Shown here: piece by piece, positions 1,500 through 23,372 of the stretch
Layout: every line of letters begins with the position of its first letter
Position numbering within the stretch: position 1 is the first letter of the stretch
Origin: a virus
Direction: 5' to 3' (one strand)
IMG/VR virus record: IMGVR_UViG_3300048839_001175
Span: 1-23,372 of that record
Length of the DNA stretch: 23,372 bases
The notes under the pieces: generated by a model
Told to the model about the DNA's origin: nothing
The model's input: the letters and a program-made list of their open reading frames with translations, nothing else
Databases searched by the model: none
Program-made: the position numbers and the translations under genes

Positions 1500-2237
1500 A
1501 TGCCGAAGTTCTACGGCGAGCTACAAGAGGCTTCACTCGAAAACCTGGCCTCTGACCCAAGCTCCACCGTCGCGGGTAGAGTGTGGCGAAACACGACCGA
1601 AAACCGCATCAAAACCGACGATGGGACGATAAAGCGGGCGTTGCTCCGAAACGACGACAAACTCGCTATCGGGAATTCCGGGACCGCAAACGAGAATGTC
1701 CGTTTGAACCGGGCCGCTGCGAGTGTGCTCCAGCTACTCCAGGGCGGAAACGTCACCCCTGAAGGAACCCTCGCCACATCGGCGATAGCCCAACTTTCCT
1801 CACGACTTGAAAACTACACCGACGCTGGTAAACCCGCCCCTGGAAACCCAGGGCGTTTGATTTTCGTTACCGACCTCGTCGAAGTTCAATACGACAATGG
1901 TGCCACCTGGCTTTCCATCGCTGGCTCAAGCGGCGGCTTTGGCGCCCTTGGTGTGCTCGTGGTCAACGCGAATACCGTGCTCACGAGCGGCGATAATCGC
2001 CGAATCCTGATGCTCGATTCAAGCGGCGGGTCGTTCAATATCGAGCTTCCAACCCCAGCCGCCAACTTCCTGCTCACAATTAAAGACTTCCTCGGCGAGC
2101 TTGAAAACTTCCCCGTTACATTGACCCGATCAAACCCATTGGTGAAGATCGAGGGGTTGGCCGCGGACTATGAGCTTCGCGCGGCCTGGGGAAATTGGAG
2201 CTTGTTCTCGGACGGTACGCACTACTACTTCGCATAA
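1500..2237 (+). CDS. Tail fibre / receptor-binding-type structural protein
   Basis: This is a 245-residue protein starting at ATG 1500 behind GGGGGAGAC, a good ribosome-binding site. I do not recognise a named family for the whole protein. The N-terminal half is polar (LASDPSSTVAGRVWRNTTEN), a phrase typical of phage particle proteins that begin by trimming empty fields. The middle (residues ~120-140, GRLIFVTDLVEVQYDNGATW) and the C-terminal ~75 residues (NRRILMLDSSGGSFNIELP, then IKDFLGELENFPVTLTRSN and WSLFSDGTHYYF) follow the pattern of beta-rich tail-tip domains seen in many phage spikes and fibres. There is no signal peptide or membrane segment. It sits between two other appendage genes with only 12 bp before the next one, so it is probably a tail appendage subunit co-expressed with them. 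Confidence 0.65.
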   Translation: MPKFYGELQEASLENLASDPSSTVAGRVWRNTTENRIKTDDGTIKRALLRNDDKLAIGNSGTANENVRLNRAAASVLQLLQGGNVTPEGTLATSAIAQLSSRLENYTDAGKPAPGNPGRLIFVTDLVEVQYDNGATWLSIAGSSGGFGALGVLVVNANTVLTSGDNRRILMLDSSGGSFNIELPTPAANFLLTIKDFLGELENFPVTLTRSNPLVKIEGLAADYELRAAWGNWSLFSDGTHYYFA

Positions 2238-2249
2238 AGAGGGCCTACA

Positions 2250-3773
2250 ATGAAGAACTTGGTCAAAAAGGTATTTACTCGCCAGGGCTCCACAAGCGAC
2301 CAATTTACGGTGCCAGCCGGAGTGAACAAACTCCGCGTGGTGTTCCAGGAAAACTTTGGTGAGGACGCGTTCTTCCCCACCAACGGCCTCGATCAATTTG
2401 GCGACATGTACTCTTGGGGCACTGCCCAAGTTGGAGACGGGTCCAACTTAAACCGCTTGTCGCCGGTAAATATCAGCTTTTTCACCGGCATCATGAAGGC
2501 CCCGTTCCACCGCGCCGACGGACAATTCATCAACTGGGGAACCAATTCCCACGGCCAACTTGGGGTTGGCGACGTGGTCACGCGGTCGGTTCCAACCCTT
2601 GTGACCGGCGGCCATGTGTTCAAGAAAATCTATCGCGGTGTTAACACCTGTTACGGCCTCAAAGAAAACGGCGAGCTTTACGCCTGGGGGCGAAACGAAC
2701 ACGGCCAACTAGGCGTTGGTGATGTGGCCTCTCGGTCCACGCCGACTCTCGTTACCGGGTTCACGTTCACGGATTTTTGGCCCGATCAACAGGCCGATTC
2801 CGCCGTTGGTATTTTCGCCAAGGACACCGACGGCCAAATGTGGGGCTGGGGCTATGACGGCACGGGCAGTCTCGGCAACGGAATCCTCGGCTCCCAAAGC
2901 ACGCCGACATTGGTGCTTGGAGCCCTTGATTTTGTGAAGATAGAACGCTGCGGGCAAGGCGGCGCCGTACCGTTACACCATACTCTTGGGCTCACCAAAG
3001 ACGGCGACATTTATGCCTGGGGGATGGGCACTTCCGGCCAACTTGGCGATAACGCTATTCAGACCCGAAGCTCGCCCGTTGCCGTAATCGGTGGATTGAA
3101 ATTCCGCGACATCATGGCGGGCACTGATTTCTCCATGGGCCTCACAACTGGGGGAACCCTTTATGCTTGGGGATTAAATACCGCTGGCCAACTGGGTCAG
3201 GGAAACATCTTTCCCAAAAGCTCGCCGGTTGCTGTGACCGGTCTTGGTTCAGTGGGCACATGGAAAGCCTATGCCGCTGGGCAATCGGCCTACGCCATCG
3301 GTAATGACCGAAAGCTCTACGCCTGGGGACACCAGGAAACCCTGTTCCCCGTGCTCGGCACCAACGATGTGGCTAAGAAATCAGTACCCACACTGGTATT
3401 CACAATTGGGTCCGCCGACATTATTGAATGTCTCGTCAAGCCCCTCCAAGGGCGCTTTGTGGAGGCAGTCACGAAGTTCGGCACGCGATACGGGTGGGGC
3501 GAGAACACGGCGGCTGGCAACCTCGGAAGTAACTCTGGGACTTTACGGTTCTCAGCGCCACAACAAGTTCTTGGTCCCAATATCGTAGGTCCCACCATCG
3601 ACGGCAATACGTGGTGGAAACGGCCCGAGGTCAAATCCGAAATCCACGAGGTTGATGTCACGCCGGGGGACACCATCACCATCGCCTACACTCAAGGACC
3701 AATTGTGCTGGGAGGACTCGGCCTATCGTCATCGCAGTTTTGCAAAGCTGTTGAGCTTCAGTGGGTGGGATAA
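2250..3773 (+). CDS. RCC1-repeat beta-propeller tail appendage protein
   Basis: This is a 507-residue protein starting at ATG 2250 with AGAGGG upstream. It contains eight W-G signatures, at about residues 56, 96, 146, 200, 257, 307, 359 and 416, spaced 40-57 residues apart. Several read YAWGxxxxGQLGxG, the hallmark of RCC1 (regulator of chromosome condensation) repeats that fold into a seven-bladed propeller; the partial first and last repeats would close the ring. Flanking the propeller are FTVPAGVNKLRVV (residues 19-31) and EVDVTPGDTITIAY (467-480). These are the two halves of a tail-tip motif that in many phage fibres brackets a glycine-rich segment. I infer that the propeller is inserted into that domain and shows at the tail surface, perhaps for receptor binding. 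It follows two fibre genes and overlaps the glycosyltransferase gene by one base (TAATG). No nucleotide-exchange role is implied. Confidence 0.85.
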   Translation: MKNLVKKVFTRQGSTSDQFTVPAGVNKLRVVFQENFGEDAFFPTNGLDQFGDMYSWGTAQVGDGSNLNRLSPVNISFFTGIMKAPFHRADGQFINWGTNSHGQLGVGDVVTRSVPTLVTGGHVFKKIYRGVNTCYGLKENGELYAWGRNEHGQLGVGDVASRSTPTLVTGFTFTDFWPDQQADSAVGIFAKDTDGQMWGWGYDGTGSLGNGILGSQSTPTLVLGALDFVKIERCGQGGAVPLHHTLGLTKDGDIYAWGMGTSGQLGDNAIQTRSSPVAVIGGLKFRDIMAGTDFSMGLTTGGTLYAWGLNTAGQLGQGNIFPKSSPVAVTGLGSVGTWKAYAAGQSAYAIGNDRKLYAWGHQETLFPVLGTNDVAKKSVPTLVFTIGSADIIECLVKPLQGRFVEAVTKFGTRYGWGENTAAGNLGSNSGTLRFSAPQQVLGPNIVGPTIDGNTWWKRPEVKSEIHEVDVTPGDTITIAYTQGPIVLGGLGLSSSQFCKAVELQWVG

Positions 3774-4774
3774 TGGACCAAATCGTCGTACCCGCACACA
3801 TGATTCCGGCGTTTCGGGCGTTTAAGGCGCTCAAGAACGGCACGGAGAAAAATCTCCTTATCACCACCTGGGGTGGGCTGGGGGACCAAGTGTGTGCGGA
3901 GCCGACGTTGCGCTACGCCCTTGAGCAATTTGGTGACAAGGCCAACTTGTCGCTCGCTACCTACGTGCCGGAAGTGTTCAGGCATTTGAAGTTCAAGCGC
4001 GTCTTCGATCTTGAACAAGAGCAACCGGCCTATGACAAGTACCTCACCTTTCAGACCATTTGCGATCAGCGCGACGTGGCCTGGAGTTTCCTCAATCACT
4101 GCATTATCAACTGCGTGGACTTTCCATCCCTTTCGGCTTTCCGCTGCACGCTGCCGATCAAGGCCAAAGAGGTAAAGCTTTTCTCCACGCCGATAAAAAT
4201 TCCGGACGCCAGTGTGGTGGTGCATCCGGGAAAGCATTGGCCCTCGAAAACCTTCCCCAAAGAGTGGTGGGACGAGGTCCTGGTGTGCTTGAGGGGTTTT
4301 GGATTAATCCCAGTTATCATCGGTAAAGATTTGGATGATGCCCGTGGAACTGTGGACGTGAGCACTGAAGGTTGTGTAGACTTGAGAAACCAACTCGATT
4401 TGAACGGGATGGTTTACCTGCTACAACAAGCGAAAGTGATTCTCACCAATGACTCCAGCCCAATTCACATTGGAGCCAGCGGCCATGCCTTCATCGGATT
4501 CGTGGCTACTTGCAAGCATCCTGATTATATTTCTCATTGGCGTATGGGTCAGTGGTCCTGGCGAATGAAGAACCTTGGCCGGGGCGGCATATGGGAGCAC
4601 CTTGACCATTTGCCGAACAAAGCCGACGACGTGACCGTAGACCAATGCGACCCGGAGCTTTTGAAATCCTGGTTGCCTGAGCCAATAGAAATAGCCGAGT
4701 GGGCCGCCTGTTCCGTCAACCAATACAAAGAAGAACCCATCGACAAGAGGCAGTGGCGTGAAACCCTTGCTTGA
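3773..4774 (+). CDS. GT9-like glycosyltransferase (heptosyltransferase family)
   Basis: I chose ATG 3773, which shares one base with the stop of the RCC1 gene (TAATG) and has GGTGGGA just upstream; a GTG at 3761 is possible. The protein is 333 residues, close to the family's usual length. The N-terminal half opens with LLITTWGGLGDQVCAEPTLR, matching the glycine-rich start of GT-B enzymes of the ADP-heptose:LPS heptosyltransferase family (GT9). The C-terminal half carries VVHPGKHWPSKTFPKEWW and later VILTNDSSPIHIGAS, the family's donor-binding signatures. Such enzymes move sugars to lipopolysaccharide in the cytoplasm. In a phage, the target could be host LPS (receptor masking) or the phage's own fibres; position between a tail protein and the lysis genes fits either. 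Donor and acceptor cannot be read from the sequence. Confidence 0.8.
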   Translation: MDQIVVPAHMIPAFRAFKALKNGTEKNLLITTWGGLGDQVCAEPTLRYALEQFGDKANLSLATYVPEVFRHLKFKRVFDLEQEQPAYDKYLTFQTICDQRDVAWSFLNHCIINCVDFPSLSAFRCTLPIKAKEVKLFSTPIKIPDASVVVHPGKHWPSKTFPKEWWDEVLVCLRGFGLIPVIIGKDLDDARGTVDVSTEGCVDLRNQLDLNGMVYLLQQAKVILTNDSSPIHIGASGHAFIGFVATCKHPDYISHWRMGQWSWRMKNLGRGGIWEHLDHLPNKADDVTVDQCDPELLKSWLPEPIEIAEWAACSVNQYKEEPIDKRQWRETLA

Positions 4775-14880: not shown

Positions 14881-15172
14881 ATCTTCCCCCTCGGGCTAAG
14901 CCCTTTAACGCTTCAAGTACCTTGTTCCAGTTTCCAGGGTGGACGACGATACCCATGCCGCCCGCCCGATTTATTAGTTCCAGTGTGTGGGCCTGAAGCC
15001 TTGATGCCTTGGCGCGTTCGCTGCGCTTTAACTCCAGCCCCACAAACATCCCGTTAATGCACAGTATGAAGTCCGGAATTCCCGCTAAGCTCCGTTCGCT
15101 CGCCTTGAAGAACCACACGTTCGGAAGTTCCTTCAGGGCTTTCCTGACCTTCACTTGGAATTGACGCTCCAA
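14843..15172 (-). CDS. VRR-NUC domain nuclease
   Basis: This 109-residue protein is a compact VRR-NUC (PD-(D/E)xK superfamily) enzyme. LAGIPDFILC holds the aspartate (D34), GLELKRSE holds E47 and K49, and LQAHTLELINRAGGMGIVVH holds the conserved Gln (Q60) and hydrophobic core. Phage VRR-NUC proteins are thought to cut branched DNA in replication or recombination. The annotated start is a TTG at 15172 with no well-placed ribosome-binding site. A GGGGG run at 15188-15192 lies 6 nt before an in-frame ATC (15179-15181), so a non-canonical start or a frameshift from the polymerase gene is possible. It overlaps the polymerase gene by 119 bp and the following DUF1617-like gene by 38 bp. Confidence 0.8.
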   Translation of the reverse strand: MERQFQVKVRKALKELPNVWFFKASERSLAGIPDFILCINGMFVGLELKRSERAKASRLQAHTLELINRAGGMGIVVHPGNWNKVLEALKGLARGGRCDRNELASTAEP

Positions 15173-16979
15173 TGGCTCGATAGATTTCCCCCAAATCCTC
15201 GGACACGGTCTCCATGTCGTGAAAAGATTTTAGGCTGAATTCCACCGAGCAAGTCAAAGGAATATTCCGGACCGGGTATGCCGCTTCCATGATGGCCTTT
15301 AATTCGGGCACAATACCGACCTCGTCGAGCGCGACCTCGAATAAAATCTCATCGTGAACCTGGAGTACCATCCGGGTTTTCTTATCGCCTAAGAACCCGT
15401 GGAGCCGGTTCATAGCGATTTTACAGACATCGGCACAGCCGCCCTGAATCACCGAGTTCGGAGCCCGGTAGGCAAAGTTCTTGTCCTTAAGCTGGAAGCG
15501 GCGCCCGAACCAATTCCAAGTGAACCCGCGTTTGCGTTGATTTCCTGAGGCGTTCCACAGGAATTGCTGCACGCCCGGCAGGGCATTAAAATATTTTTGC
15601 TTGAACGCCTTGGCCTCGGCATCCGTGACACCAATTCCATGGGCGAGCCTGGCAATCCCCATCCCATAAATCAACCCGAAGTTTAGGGTCTTTGCTGCCT
15701 TCCGGGACAGGCCCGTTAAATCAGCGGTCGCTTGGTGAGGGTCGTGCCCCTCAATGATCTTTTGAATGAGTTCCATTTCCTTGGCGTAATCCAGCAAAAC
15801 CCGGAACTCCATTTGCTTGTAGTCAATGCTCACGAAGAAAAACCCAGGTCGCGGCACAAACGCCCGCCGGATTGGGTATTCGCTTTCGTCTTCCGCGGCC
15901 AAGTTCTGGAGATTTGGTTCCATGGACGACATGCGCCCAGTGACCGTTCCCGATTGCTTGAAGTTCGTGTGGACCACATGGTTGTTATCCGCCTGGTAAA
16001 GCAACCCCATGAGAGTGGAGTAGCGTTTGTCGGCGTCCCGATATTCTTCGAGGATGCGCGCCAAGGGGTGGTCGATTTTGGAAATGACGTTATAGTCCAC
16101 GTTGGGCTCGCCCTTATCGGTGAGCGGAATATAAAATCCCAGCGCCTCAAACACGGGCTTTAAATATTCACCGGAGTCAGTTAGTTCAACCCCGTGAGCC
16201 GCCTTCCACTTCTCAAGAGCTTGTTCCACGCGCCTGCGCTCAAACTCAGAGGCCGCAATAGTAAAGGGGATGTCCACCTTTACGCCCACTTGCTCCATGT
16301 CGAACAGCGTTTGGATAAGGCGCATTTCGTTTTGAATCACATTTTGGTCGGTTGCGTGAAACGGATTTTTATCTGGGTCGGTCTGATGCTGCCATAGGGC
16401 GAGCGTGAGCTTCGCGTCCTTGGCGCCGTACTTTGAGATAATCTCAAACGGCACTTGGTTGAAAAAGTAATTCTTGTTTTGTTTCTTCCGACCAGGCACC
16501 GACTCCATTTGGTAGCACTTGTTTTCCTCTAACCATTTCATCACGGCGTCGTCTTTGCGCTCCCCGAGTTCCCGCTCAGCCATGGCATCGAGGCTGTAGG
16601 AATCGTGGATATTGTAAAGCACGCGGCCCGCGACTTGTGTGTCGTAAAACTCGCCCTTTGGTTTGAGCCCCGCTTTGTTTAAAAAGTGAAGATCGAACTT
16701 GGCGTTCTGTAATACCCACAGCCTTGGAGTTTCAAACAGGGGCGCAAGGCTGGCCTTATCTTTCAGTTGGTACTGTGCAACCCCTAACTCCGAATACCAA
16801 TTGAAATTAAAGTAGCAGGCGGTCTTTGACGACGAGACGATAATACTGAAAAGCTCATCATTGTGGAAGGGGCGAAGGCCCGTCGTCTCCGTGTCAATGG
16901 CGAGAATTGGTTCCTCTTTAAACTCAGCGAGAATCGCGCCGAGGGTTTCCTCGGTCGCGATAACTTCAATTTGATTCAT
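15054..16979 (-). CDS. polA-like: Family A DNA polymerase with 3'-5' exonuclease
   Basis: I chose ATG 16979, which follows AGGGG by 6 nt; a TTG at 16985 is inferior. The 641-residue protein has an intact DnaQ-like proofreading domain: AIDTETTGL (D29, E31), LQNAKFDLHF (N92, D96) and YGAKDA (Y184, D188). It then has palm and fingers motifs: motif A FVSIDYKQMEFR (D386), motif B RKAAKTLNFGLIYG, and motif C QVHDEILF (H542, D543). All catalytic residues are present and there is no 5'-3' nuclease domain, as in T7-type phage polymerases. It copies the phage genome with the primase-helicase encoded divergently. The last ~45 residues extend past the usual family end and overlap the nuclease gene in another frame. 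Confidence 0.97.
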   Translation of the reverse strand: MNQIEVIATEETLGAILAEFKEEPILAIDTETTGLRPFHNDELFSIIVSSSKTACYFNFNWYSELGVAQYQLKDKASLAPLFETPRLWVLQNAKFDLHFLNKAGLKPKGEFYDTQVAGRVLYNIHDSYSLDAMAERELGERKDDAVMKWLEENKCYQMESVPGRKKQNKNYFFNQVPFEIISKYGAKDAKLTLALWQHQTDPDKNPFHATDQNVIQNEMRLIQTLFDMEQVGVKVDIPFTIAASEFERRRVEQALEKWKAAHGVELTDSGEYLKPVFEALGFYIPLTDKGEPNVDYNVISKIDHPLARILEEYRDADKRYSTLMGLLYQADNNHVVHTNFKQSGTVTGRMSSMEPNLQNLAAEDESEYPIRRAFVPRPGFFFVSIDYKQMEFRVLLDYAKEMELIQKIIEGHDPHQATADLTGLSRKAAKTLNFGLIYGMGIARLAHGIGVTDAEAKAFKQKYFNALPGVQQFLWNASGNQRKRGFTWNWFGRRFQLKDKNFAYRAPNSVIQGGCADVCKIAMNRLHGFLGDKKTRMVLQVHDEILFEVALDEVGIVPELKAIMEAAYPVRNIPLTCSVEFSLKSFHDMETVSEDLGEIYRAIGASIPSEGQESPEGTSERVVLQGERTELSGNSGLHTVH

Positions 16980-16988
16980 GGCCAACCC

Positions 16989-18236: not shown

Positions 18237-18476
18237 TTAGTGCATGTCATCCGACTCAACCAAACCGTCTTCCAGTTGGTCAATCTCAATGTTGCAATTG
18301 CTGCATATGTCCTTGCAGATTAAATACAGCGTCAACGCCACAGTCACCGGCTCGATGGGCTCTTGGCTCGTGAGCCCGTACACCACCACTCTGAAGTCCT
18401 TGGTGGTTCGGGTCTCGACTTGAATTTCCTGGTCGTTGATTTCGATCTTGGAGACGTTGGCTATTTCTTCAGACAT
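18237..18476 (-). CDS. Hypothetical protein in replication operon
   Basis: This 79-residue protein starts at ATG 18476, 16 bases inside the 3' end of the helicase gene. It is acidic and probably mixed alpha/beta (VSKIEINDQEIQVETRTTKD; VALTLYLICKDICSNCNIEI), with three cysteines in ICKDICSNC. I recognise no family. It may act with the helicase it overlaps. Confidence 0.5.
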   Translation of the reverse strand: MSEEIANVSKIEINDQEIQVETRTTKDFRVVVYGLTSQEPIEPVTVALTLYLICKDICSNCNIEIDQLEDGLVESDDMH

Positions 18477-19960
18477 TGGAATATCACCCGGTCAGAGATT
18501 TCCTGCTTTTGCTCCAGGGCCTTTAAGACATCGTCGTCAATGGTTCCAGGTGCGACAAGGTCAATCCGAGTGATTTTTCCATGAATCTCTGAACCGCCGC
18601 GATAATTTCGCGCCTCACTTTGTACGTCTTGTTCGAGCGAGAAATTTCTCGAATAATATATCGCATAAGAGGCTTCCACCAAGTTAACGCCGATGCCCCC
18701 GGCCCCCTGGCTTCCAAGGATAACGCGGACATTCGGGTCGCGGCGAAAATCTTCCATTGCTTGCTGGCGGTCTTGGTGACTTGAATCTCCAATAAGTTCC
18801 CTAAATCCGATCTTAGTTTTAGCGAGCATGTCCCGAATCGCGCGTTGGTTGTTACGCCAACAGGCCCAAACGATAACTTTTTCTGATTCGCATAAATCTT
18901 CGAGCAATTCCTTGAGCGCGTCGAGGCGCGGGACGTTCTTGAAATCGTGTTCGCTTCCATCATCACTCCCCAAAAAACCGGACGTTATTTGTTGTAGCCT
19001 GAGAGCCTTGTGTAGAGCCATTTGCGCGGTACAGGCTTCCGTCCCTACGAACGTAATCATGTACTTCCGCATTTCCTCATAGGCTTTCATTTGCTCATTC
19101 GACAATGGAACCGCGACCCGCTGGCGCACGAACGGCGGCAGGTCCAGGCACTCCGATTTTCTCACCGAGAGACTGGAGTTGGAGATTTTGGTTTTGAGTT
19201 CCGCCTCGCGGTGTTTGATCGGCGCCCACTTGGCCCACGTCACTTGTGGTGAGCGTGCCCGGATGCTCGCGTTTAAGTCTTGGAAGTATCTGCGGCGGAA
19301 GGTGAAGTAATTAACCCCAAAGGTTTTTCCCCCATCGAGAAACATGAACTGGGAAAACGCGTCCATGGCGTTCTGGAGAATCGGCGTCCCAGATAAAATA
19401 TATTTATACTGGGCGTGAATCGCTAACGCTATCGCTCGCTTGGTCATCATGGCTTTTGGGTTTTTTATCCGGTGTGACTCGTCGGCAATCATGACCTTTG
19501 GAGCCCAGGCTCTTAGCGCATCGAACGCCGGTAACATATTGAGCGTGTGGTAATTGCAAATCAGAATCCGTGCGTCCGTGGTTTTGATGGTTTCGGTTCG
19601 CTCTTTGCCTGAGCCTTCCAGGACCTCGATCATGCGTTCCGGAATTTTTGAGAACTTCGCGAACTCGGCTTTCCAATTTGGGCACACCACTTGCGGCGCC
19701 ACAATCAGGGTCTTGAGCGCCTCGTTGTGCTGCGTATAAATGTGGCGCAGGACTTCAATGGTGGTACGGGTTTTCCCGGTCCCGGCTTCAAAGAAAAAGC
19801 CATAGCTACCTTTGGCCAGTGCCCGATGAATACCCTCGACTTGATGGCCCCAAAGACCGTTTAAGTTTGAACTTGGTTCCACCGATGAATTGCCGGATGG
19901 ATACGCATTCCCATCGTGACCGAGGGGACTGGGGTCGCCAACGTGTTCAGCGTCAGTCAC
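18461..19960 (-). CDS. SNF2-family DEAD/DEAH-type helicase
   Basis: This 499-residue protein starts at GTG 19960 (8-bp overlap with the previous gene). It has the SF2/SNF2 motif set in order: FEAGTGKTRTTIE (Walker A, K63), LIVAPQVVCPNWKAEF (Ia), MIADESHRIKNP (DESH at 160-163, Walker B), ILSGTPILQN (III), then in lobe two VIVWACWRNNQ (IV), VILGSQGAGGIGVNL (V) and QSEARNYRGG (VI, R451/R454). The DESH box and the Q-x-x-A-R-x-x-R motif place it with phage SNF2-like translocases. It would use ATP to move along or remodel DNA during phage replication or recombination. The N-terminal 35 residues are poorly conserved and disordered. It is the largest accessory helicase in the operon, separate from the SF3 helicase on the other strand. 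Confidence 0.93.
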   Translation of the reverse strand: MTDAEHVGDPSPLGHDGNAYPSGNSSVEPSSNLNGLWGHQVEGIHRALAKGSYGFFFEAGTGKTRTTIEVLRHIYTQHNEALKTLIVAPQVVCPNWKAEFAKFSKIPERMIEVLEGSGKERTETIKTTDARILICNYHTLNMLPAFDALRAWAPKVMIADESHRIKNPKAMMTKRAIALAIHAQYKYILSGTPILQNAMDAFSQFMFLDGGKTFGVNYFTFRRRYFQDLNASIRARSPQVTWAKWAPIKHREAELKTKISNSSLSVRKSECLDLPPFVRQRVAVPLSNEQMKAYEEMRKYMITFVGTEACTAQMALHKALRLQQITSGFLGSDDGSEHDFKNVPRLDALKELLEDLCESEKVIVWACWRNNQRAIRDMLAKTKIGFRELIGDSSHQDRQQAMEDFRRDPNVRVILGSQGAGGIGVNLVEASYAIYYSRNFSLEQDVQSEARNYRGGSEIHGKITRIDLVAPGTIDDDVLKALEQKQEISDRVIFQCLKK

Positions 19961-21102: not shown

Positions 21103-23372
21103 TTGGAACTTCAAGATTTTATCAAGTCCCATGGTTTTGATTTTTTGCCATCACAGTTAGACGGAATCCCGCACGAGTTCACGGATTCACTGGGGAACAA
21201 AGGTTGGTACATCGGTTCCACGTTGGCGTCGGGAAAAATTACACTCACTTGGGGCGAATGGCGTCACGGTAAAAGTTACTCTTATTTTTCGAGCGACACG
21301 ATTTCAGAGGGGGAAAGACATGAATTCGAGGAAAAGCAAAAACAATTTATCCAACAAAAAACCGAACGCCAGCTTCAGGCCAAAAAGAACGCCTCGGACA
21401 TCTTCACTCGATACGAGCAAAAGGGAAGCTCCGGCACATCCTTATATCTTGAGAAAAAGAAACTCCCAAACCATGTGCCCGGCACCATCGTTAAACCAAC
21501 CGGAAGTGGTCACGCCGTCGTCGTTCCCATGCGGGACGAATCAGGTGAAGTTTGGAACTTCCAAACCATCTTCGACTCCGGCGACAAATCATTCTTCAAC
21601 TTTGGCCGAGTCGAGGGGTTGTTCTTTGAGTTGCCCGCTACTGCCGGTGGGGACCCAATCACTCTTGTCTGTGAGGGATTTGCTACAGGGGTCGCGCTCA
21701 ATATCGCCACGGGCTCGCGGGTCATCGTGGCCTTTACCCTTTCCAACTTAAAGCACGTAGCCCCGAAATTCCCCGGCGCGATTCTGGCGCTCGACAATGA
21801 CGCTGACACCAAGGCCAAGATGCTGGCGGCGGGACACCGAGCGCCCGTGAATCCGGGGTTGGAACAGGGCGGGCGTCTCGCGCTGGAATTGGGTCTTGGT
21901 GCCGTGTGCCCTCCGGGCGATGCGAGCATGGACTACTGCGATCTTTGGGTCTTAGGCGGTACCCAGGCGGTCAAGGACGGCATGGTCCCGGTGGACATGG
22001 CCCAGTTTCAAAAATTCGATTCGCCGCCGTCCCCATCATCCGCCCAGAAACCAAGTTCTAATTTGGTGGTGGGGCCTTGGGTTAATGGCCTTGAGCCCAT
22101 GGACATGAAATACACCAAGACCGGCAAGGTTATTCTCCCGGAAGAAATGGAAGTCGCCCGCCGCTTGTTTGATTACTACCAGGGCTCGCTGGTGAAATTC
22201 GATACCGATATTTTCCTTTGGGATAAAAAATACTGGCGCGCTTTCACCGAGGCCGATCAGGCCCACGTCATGCAGCAAATCATGGTCCTTCACGCTGGCT
22301 ATGGCACCTATAACCGCTTTCGCTCCGTGTTCCAATGTTTCCTGAACCTACTCCCGCACACTAAACGTAATATGTTTTACGTGAACCCGCAGCGCGTGAC
22401 CTTTAATAACGGAACCCTGGCCATTGATTACGCCAAGGGCAATTGGGAATTCACGTTTCGGGAGCACCGACGCGATGATTTCTCCACTAACCTGATTCCC
22501 TTTGATTACGACCCGGACGCCAAAAACCCAGTGTTCGAGGAAACCATTCATAACATCCTGGGCGATGCCGAGTACGAAACCAAACTCAGGGCGGTCAAAC
22601 AAATGTACGGGTCGGTCCTTGCGCCCTTGTATCCGAGGCTCTTTTTATTGGTGGGGAAACCAGGCTCGGGCAAATCAACGCTGATTATTTTGGCCGCGCA
22701 ATTGGTGAGTGAGGGGAACGTATGCTCCGTGCAACCGGCGGACTTTCAAGGGTTCGGCATGGAACCAATGGCTGGGAAGCTGGTCAACGCCGTCACCGAC
22801 TTGGACGTGTCCAAACCCATCGCCGATGCCGTGATTAAACAAATCGAGGACCGAATCCCCGTCGCCATCAACCGCAAACATAAGGCCATAATCCGGGCGC
22901 CGTTCCCCGCGGTCCATATATTTGGAGCGAACGACATTCCACCCACGCTTGAAAGGGGCTCCATGGCCCACACGAGACGATGGACCTTTATCCCGTGCTC
23001 CCACTTTCAAAAGGACGCCAGTGAGCACGATAAACATAGGATAGACAGAATCCGTGAAGCCGGGATGGCGGGGATAATTAATTTCGCGCTCGAAGGACTG
23101 AAGGATTTGCTCAACTGCCACGGACAGTTTTTTGTGCCCGATTCAGGCAAAGTCCGGATGCAAAAATGGCAGACTGATAACGACCCGATTGCGAGCTTTT
23201 TTGAGGCGATTCGCGAAGGGGAAGTGGCGGACTTAACCCTTGAATCCGGGGTGCGTTGCTATACTAAAGTCTTGTGGGAAGAGTTCTGTAAATGGCATGA
23301 AGATGCCTATAACGCGAGGCCCCGGATACCCAAGATGAAATTCTATGCGCGGTGCGAAACGGGGACTGGGGG
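21103..23372 (+). CDS. TOPRIM primase / SF3 helicase fusion (3' end cut by window edge)
   Basis: The frame is open for 756 residues from TTG 21103 to the right edge with no stop. The start follows AAAGGGGGG by 6 nt. Residues ~22-60 (NKGWYIGS; WGEWRHGKSYSY) fit the N-terminal module of phage and plasmid TOPRIM primases. The TOPRIM core has CEGFATG (E191) and LALDNDAD (D231, D233). After a Pro/Ser-rich linker (~306-320) comes a D5-like/SF3 helicase: LLVGKPGSGKSTLI (Walker A, K524), VTDLDV as candidate Walker B, FGANDIPP (sensor-1, N610) and HTRRWTFIP (arginine finger, R625). Together it would lay primers and unwind the phage fork, alone or with the SNF2 helicase. No DnaG-type zinc finger or AEP motif is visible. 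It is transcribed divergently from the polymerase operon, next to the candidate origin. Confidence 0.92.
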   Translation, partial: MELQDFIKSHGFDFLPSQLDGIPHEFTDSLGNKGWYIGSTLASGKITLTWGEWRHGKSYSYFSSDTISEGERHEFEEKQKQFIQQKTERQLQAKKNASDIFTRYEQKGSSGTSLYLEKKKLPNHVPGTIVKPTGSGHAVVVPMRDESGEVWNFQTIFDSGDKSFFNFGRVEGLFFELPATAGGDPITLVCEGFATGVALNIATGSRVIVAFTLSNLKHVAPKFPGAILALDNDADTKAKMLAAGHRAPVNPGLEQGGRLALELGLGAVCPPGDASMDYCDLWVLGGTQAVKDGMVPVDMAQFQKFDSPPSPSSAQKPSSNLVVGPWVNGLEPMDMKYTKTGKVILPEEMEVARRLFDYYQGSLVKFDTDIFLWDKKYWRAFTEADQAHVMQQIMVLHAGYGTYNRFRSVFQCFLNLLPHTKRNMFYVNPQRVTFNNGTLAIDYAKGNWEFTFREHRRDDFSTNLIPFDYDPDAKNPVFEETIHNILGDAEYETKLRAVKQMYGSVLAPLYPRLFLLVGKPGSGKSTLIILAAQLVSEGNVCSVQPADFQGFGMEPMAGKLVNAVTDLDVSKPIADAVIKQIEDRIPVAINRKHKAIIRAPFPAVHIFGANDIPPTLERGSMAHTRRWTFIPCSHFQKDASEHDKHRIDRIREAGMAGIINFALEGLKDLLNCHGQFFVPDSGKVRMQKWQTDNDPIASFFEAIREGEVADLTLESGVRCYTKVLWEEFCKWHEDAYNARPRIPKMKFYARCETGTG

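Follow-up and report, generated by a model that had tools for sequence, protein, structure and literature searches.

A predicted phage tail-tip protein in which an RCC1 propeller takes the place of the first glycine-rich loop, encoded beside a GT9-family glycosyltransferase

Here we describe a 507-residue protein encoded in a 23.4-kb IMG/VR virus fragment (the window, by which we mean the whole stretch of 23,372 nucleotides that was analysed), which we read, with a probability of about 0.78, as a tail-tip protein whose scaffold, of the glycine-rich-tip type, bears an RCC1 propeller in its first loop. According to this reading, the protein would be the distal tip (adhesin) of a phage tail fibre and have a gene of its own, its scaffold would be a TNF-like beta-sandwich of the Gly_rich_2/Pam3 gp24 type, and a closed eight-blade RCC1 propeller would stand where the first glycine-rich loop would otherwise be. 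Closure of the ring makes neighbours of the first and last blades and brings both ends of the propeller to one point, and for this reason the ring may fit the loop regardless of how many blades it has (7 to 9 here). The tip would be produced just after the fibre encoded upstream and would probably dock on the C-terminal domain of that fibre, the docked tip holding the propeller at the far end and in contact with the host surface, and the GT9 enzyme, translated from an overlapping start, would most likely glycosylate the RCC1 tip. Phage fibre tips and phage RCC1 proteins are already known kinds; the link with GT9 is the unexpected result and was absent from the sequence-only reading that this analysis followed up. 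The features are located in Table 1.

Table 1. Positions in the window of the RCC1 gene, its parts and its two neighbours
Feature	Coordinates	Strand	Basis
Putative RCC1 fibre-tip protein (507 aa)	2250..3773	+	Pfam PF00415/PF25390; 93% identical orthologue L002; AF2
N-flank, residues 1-34, including FTVPAGVNKLRVV; putative first part of split tip domain	2250..2351	+	AF2 secondary structure; hhalign to classic Gly_rich domains
RCC1 propeller, residues ~45-440, eight blades	2382..3569	+	WG motifs, repeat HMM, AF2 strands, Foldseek to UVR8
C-flank, residues ~461-507, including EVDVTPGDTITIAY; putative second part of split tip domain	3630..3770	+	AF2; C-flank HMM
Upstream fibre gene, conserved C-terminal domain	1500..2237	+	Alignment to L090; C-terminal motif common to cassettes
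GT9 glycosyltransferase	3773..4774	+	Pfam Glyco_transf_9; profile match to heptosyltransferase II; sequence

The protein was matched by the RCC1 family PF00415 in six stretches (E=9e-47; 157.9 bits against a cut-off of 21.7) and by the RCC1-like family PF25390 (E=1e-55; 190 bits against a cut-off of 150), and the solved structures nearest to it are those of UVR8, HERC2 and RCC1. The eight WG-centred repeats noticed at the outset were borne out by the WG motifs themselves (residues 56, 96, 146, 200, 257, 307, 359 and 416) and by the family repeat HMM, which likewise gave eight blades. Structure prediction of the monomer with AF2, using a 26-sequence alignment, yielded a model with pLDDT 84.5 and pTM 0.78 in which seven strands lie outside the propeller, three ahead of it (4-10, 16-20 and 27-34) and four behind it (462-469, 475-480, 485-487 and 498-506). 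The description of the propeller as eukaryote-like was misleading, because bacterial genomes and phages commonly contain RCC1 repeats. With eight blades the protein also departs from the seven-blade type of RCC1 and UVR8, blade number being a property of the best-known members and not of the RCC1 repeat family itself. Among the relatives there are seven blades in L251, L254, L245, L246 and one copy of L090, and nine in L236; the genes at L236 4069-5889, L251 3409-4728 and L254 2024-3367 have the same scaffold with blades varying from 7 to 9. Foldseek aligned the window protein to UVR8 with E=4e-30 and a target TM-score of about 0.74-0.76, whereas the seven-blade relative L251, a protein of 439 residues, reached a TM-score of 0.89, and this better fit of L251 is consistent with the window ring being a seven-blade ring enlarged to eight.

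The best self-match of the gene is indeed, as first noticed, the pair of repeats at 2550 and 2700, exactly 150 bp apart; the growth by tandem duplication proposed from it was not supported as a recent event. The identity of this pair is 73% over 60 nt but drops to 52% when 90 nt are compared and to 41% when 150 nt are, so that the match fades within 90 nt, and orthologues only 52% identical to the window protein already have the same eight blades, for which reasons we rejected a recent tandem duplication. The 50-codon spacing of the pair is simply the usual blade length.

The assignment of the protein to a tail tip draws on the segments on either side of the propeller. The two phrases pointed out near its ends are present as described, FTVPAGVNKLRVV from residue 19 (19-31) and EVDVTPGDTITIAY at about 467-480, with the C-flank reading EVDVTPGDTITIAY…VELQWVG and running into a final strand at 498-506. 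In 26 relatives these flanks are as conserved as the blades, residues P22 and V25 of the first phrase and V470, P472 and G473 of the second being invariant or nearly so. Classic Gly_rich_2 domains follow the order [FW]T.PAGV..V.V, Gly-rich loop, VTPG..Y.V.V, Gly-rich loop, V.[IV].[YW], and the claim that the two phrases bracket a glycine-rich region in such tips agrees with their homology to the strands around the first loop, as detected by hhalign and by an HMM of the C-flank. For the profile comparison we relied on uncut termini and shuffled controls and did not use segments cut at the motifs, which would be circular. With uncut termini as profiles, the N-flank matched classic Gly_rich tips with a hhalign probability of 96.8, and the C-flank matched them with a score of 26.7, the best of 60 column-shuffled controls scoring 15.3. 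Examination of 5,529 ORFs from outside the family with the C-flank HMM gave 17 matches at E<=0.3, and 16 of these were glycine-rich ORFs, a class making up only 63 (1.1%) of that background (Fisher 1.7e-31). This set had been fetched in part by the N-flank motif, a procedure of which the position of the C-flank match is independent. In the glycine-rich ORFs the matches fall on the strand right after the first Gly-rich loop, and on this ground the RCC1 array most likely occupies the first glycine-rich loop of a tip domain of the Gly_rich_2/Pam3-gp24 type. Both the hhalign scores with their shuffled controls and the specificity of the C-flank HMM point to the presence in the window protein of the scaffold strands that flank Gly-rich loops, and we infer that the two flanks pack together as one domain.

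The joined flanks gave no match to the Pfam Gly_rich_2 model (PF21722), which scores classic proteins at 49 bits, and the window protein has no Gly-rich loop. HMM searches therefore recovered the RCC1 part of the expected architecture, and the Pfam model did not recover the flanking part; we do not file the protein as a Gly_rich_2 member, and regard it as probably sharing the Gly_rich_2 scaffold. The missing Pfam score, together with the shortness of the matching segments (about 24 and 20 residues), would suit another explanation, in which the flanks are two short independent strands capping an ordinary phage RCC1 protein and their likeness to tips is due to convergence on strand-turn motifs (VPAGV, VTPG). 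We consider this improbable, as both motifs co-occur throughout the family in the right order and place, outside the family the C-flank HMM finds almost nothing but the corresponding strand of Gly-rich tips, the last strand is retained as well (V.[IV].[YW]), and the flanks are absent from 77 other RCC1-bearing viral loci. Between the classic Gly_rich domain itself and the solved fibre tip of Pam3 (7yfw/7ypx) there is a weak match, with an E of 2e-3. In the Pam3 tip, strands of a TNF-like sandwich carry six glycine-rich loops that project distally and whose ends are proposed to be receptor-binding elements (PMC9608196).

Searching for close relatives retrieved two orthologues, and the general RCC1 profile retrieved L090 with 77 further viral loci and 80 bacterial loci, the flanks being found in L090 only. 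A DNA pattern combining FTVPAGV with WG, run over 2.9 million viral contigs, picked up RCC1 in no contigs other than close relatives of the window, and its remaining translated matches were classic Gly-rich domains. Compared with the general RCC1 profile, the neighbouring GT9 gene was the better bait for the family, and the survey of phage genomes suggested at the outset accordingly found the same split-flank RCC1 architecture in no fewer than 34 IMG/VR phage lineages, each adjoining a GT9-family gene. When the GT9 sequences were clustered at 90% identity, 34 of the 61 clusters adjoined a split-flank RCC1 gene, 11 an RCC1 gene without flanks and 14 neither, with 2 lying at contig edges. In the open-access literature, which we covered in part, we found neither the split architecture nor its link with GT9 described. 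The exchange between loop and propeller imagined in the sequence-only reading is seen at L270, where the slot directly before GT9 holds a classic glycine-rich protein ending in ...YIEVTEYYQ; together with the flank homology, this locus supports a propeller in place of the glycine-rich loop.

The genes of the cassette stand in the order fibre, RCC1 tip, GT9, and the C-terminal motif of the fibre gene, F.[VI]KD..G....N.(I/V)T..R.....EG.A.DY...GxWxxxxDGTxYY, is present in most of 24 loci compared. In L235 and L257 the N-terminal part of the fibre and the RCC1 tip form a single ORF, a fusion that ties the RCC1 protein to the tail. Homologues with the same flanks thus sit in fibre cassettes, adjoining the fibre gene or sometimes fused with it, and the flanks are related to tail proteins, as had been supposed. 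Tail-fibre chaperones also sit just after the fibre gene, and the RCC1 protein might then be a chaperone of the fibre or a factor in its assembly, as are the Tfa proteins, which have genes of their own, and lie outside the mature tail. This seems to us very improbable in view of the two fusions, of a scaffold that is that of a tip domain, and of the detection by mass spectrometry of RCC1 proteins in purified virions of E. coli phage W70, where they are encoded by three tandem genes (PMC11370258), and of GAP32 (PMC5259590). The RCC1 protein of W70 is without the split scaffold, and the data from these two phages support a general role of phage RCC1 proteins only.

Three RCC1 tips stand in tandem in L237, L238 (L090/L238) and L264, every copy with complete flanks, which suggests that these paralogues are alternative or combined tips. 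The carrier contigs span about 5 to 175 kb; a baseplate J gene is found in 15 of 37 records, and an SU10-type adaptor gene in the window and one relative, so that phages with different tail types carry the cassette. A tyrosine recombinase (PF00589) is encoded in relatives of the window clade (at 21212-21646 of G001, the L231 record, and in G002, G003 and G026), and its presence in L231, L233 and L234 means that the window clade may be temperate. A search for the host through 398 genomes from a single bacterial phylum found nothing.

The start codon of the GT9 ORF overlaps the stop codon of the RCC1 gene (TAATG at 3771-3775). Its product matches Glyco_transf_9 (PF01075) with E=2.8e-10 (40.4 bits against a cut-off of 22), its profile matches heptosyltransferase II (1psw) with E=2.4e-6, and in 23 relatives the motifs WGG.GDQ, HPGKHW.SKTFP and NDSSP.H are conserved or almost conserved, the cultured-phage collection containing no relative of this enzyme. 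An RCC1 gene, with or without the split scaffold, adjoins GT9 in 45 of the 59 non-redundant clusters with visible neighbours (loci L230-L309). Conversely, GT9 was found near 5 of the 77 viral loci fetched by RCC1, near 1 of the 80 bacterial RCC1 loci (a weak match 2.4 kb away) and near none of 57 classic glycine-rich loci. Distant members of the clade (L287, L290, L300, L072, L074 and L254) are two-domain GT8+GT9 enzymes, which stand mostly beside RCC1 genes with 7 or 14 blades; even at this distance the clade has RCC1 genes lacking the scaffold as neighbours. GT9 therefore tracks RCC1 and not the scaffold, and is most simply read as an enzyme modifying the RCC1 protein; glycosylation of the RCC1 tip by GT9 is the reading that we prefer, and it is unproven. 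Distances between GT9 and RCC1 sequences correlate weakly (rho 0.31, compared with 0.32 for RCC1 and fibre) and so do not show co-evolution of the two. At L256 4812-5926, two minus-strand ORFs that by eye resemble 2OG-Fe(II) oxygenases are flanked on one side by a large glycine-rich protein and on the other by a GT9 gene.

A serious rival, in our view rather unlikely, is that GT9 acts on the LPS of the host (core heptose or hexose) and alters the receptor after infection, thereby blocking superinfection or stopping progeny from sticking to debris, while an unglycosylated RCC1 tip recognises the glycan. GT9 is the family of LPS heptosyltransferases, the profile matches heptosyltransferase II, both GT8 and GT9, fused in the distant members, are known from LPS core synthesis, and the recombinases mentioned above mean that some carriers may be temperate. 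However, the enzyme accompanies RCC1 specifically, with or without the Gly-rich scaffold, and is absent near the classic Gly-rich loci; an integrase is found in only 4 of 37 carrier records, many of which are fragments; and masking of the receptor would be odd for an enzyme co-expressed late with the tail tip. Returning to glycosylation of the tip, TibA/TibC and AIDA-I offer an analogy for GT9 and the RCC1 tip, as there an enzyme of the heptosyltransferase type modifies a repetitive adhesin (PMC4358343). TibA and AIDA-I are autotransporters, whereas the window protein would be a phage tail protein, putatively glycosylated, and the iron-binding dodecamer is a feature of TibC. It is possible, though we hold it at somewhat less than even odds, that the cassette is a widespread phage module whose RCC1 propeller varies in blade number and, mounted on a fibre-tip scaffold, is glycosylated by a GT9 (or GT8-GT9) enzyme dedicated to it and displayed as a sugar-decorated tail adhesin.

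The window protein shares with Gly_rich_2 (PF21722) tips, such as Pam3 gp24 (7yfw/7ypx) and S16 gp38, the N-terminal strand motif [FW]T.PAGV..V.V, the strand VTPG..y.v.v after the first loop, the C-terminal strand [VI].[VI].[YW] and, as proposed, the distal position on the fibre; it differs from them in having an RCC1 propeller of about 400 residues for the first loop and a second loop shortened to about ten residues. Other phage RCC1 proteins (phrog_4219, phrog_7220 and phrog_16766; W70_237-239, GAP_001 of GAP32, and the tail fibres of PollyC and SeaP3) resemble the window family in having RCC1 repeats in structural genes, often in tandem copies, some of them proven in virions. The split tip scaffold is nevertheless absent from the phage RCC1 records examined and, outside the window clade, from the viral contigs fetched by RCC1 with the exception of L090. 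UVR8, HERC2 and RCC1 have the same blade sequence and fold, but are eukaryotic and seven-bladed. In phi11 Gp45 (five blades), PRD1 P2 and PhiKZ gp131C (seven blades) a beta-propeller serves as a host-facing adhesin module (PMC4901313), as we propose here, but these are not shown to be RCC1, do not sit in a Gly-rich tip scaffold and differ in blade number. If our reading is correct, a large closed propeller can stand in for the glycine-rich loop of a tip domain that is very common in phages, and the domain would act as a modular socket for host-recognition modules. The many phage genes annotated 'regulator of chromosome condensation' would thereby gain a likely role, and the link of phage RCC1 proteins with a specific glycosyltransferase makes tail-tip glycosylation directly testable.

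Comparison of the window with its closest relative, L002, showed 34 amino-acid and 242 nucleotide differences in the RCC1 gene (93.3% amino-acid identity). The other genes of this pair are 90-95% identical in amino acids, so that the RCC1 tip varies no more than the genes around it, and we rejected a hypervariable RCC1 gene for this one close pair. Such similar variability counts against the adhesin reading, since a hypervariable adhesin would differ more. The divergent gene in this pair is the upstream ORF 3-1376, which is fibre-like and 92% identical to its L002 counterpart over the first 84 residues, and thereafter unalignable or 41% identical; it is a probable variable or recombining host-range region. 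Elsewhere in the window, antisense to the structural genes, lie a family A DNA polymerase (15054-16985, minus strand) and an SNF2-type helicase (18461-19960, minus strand).
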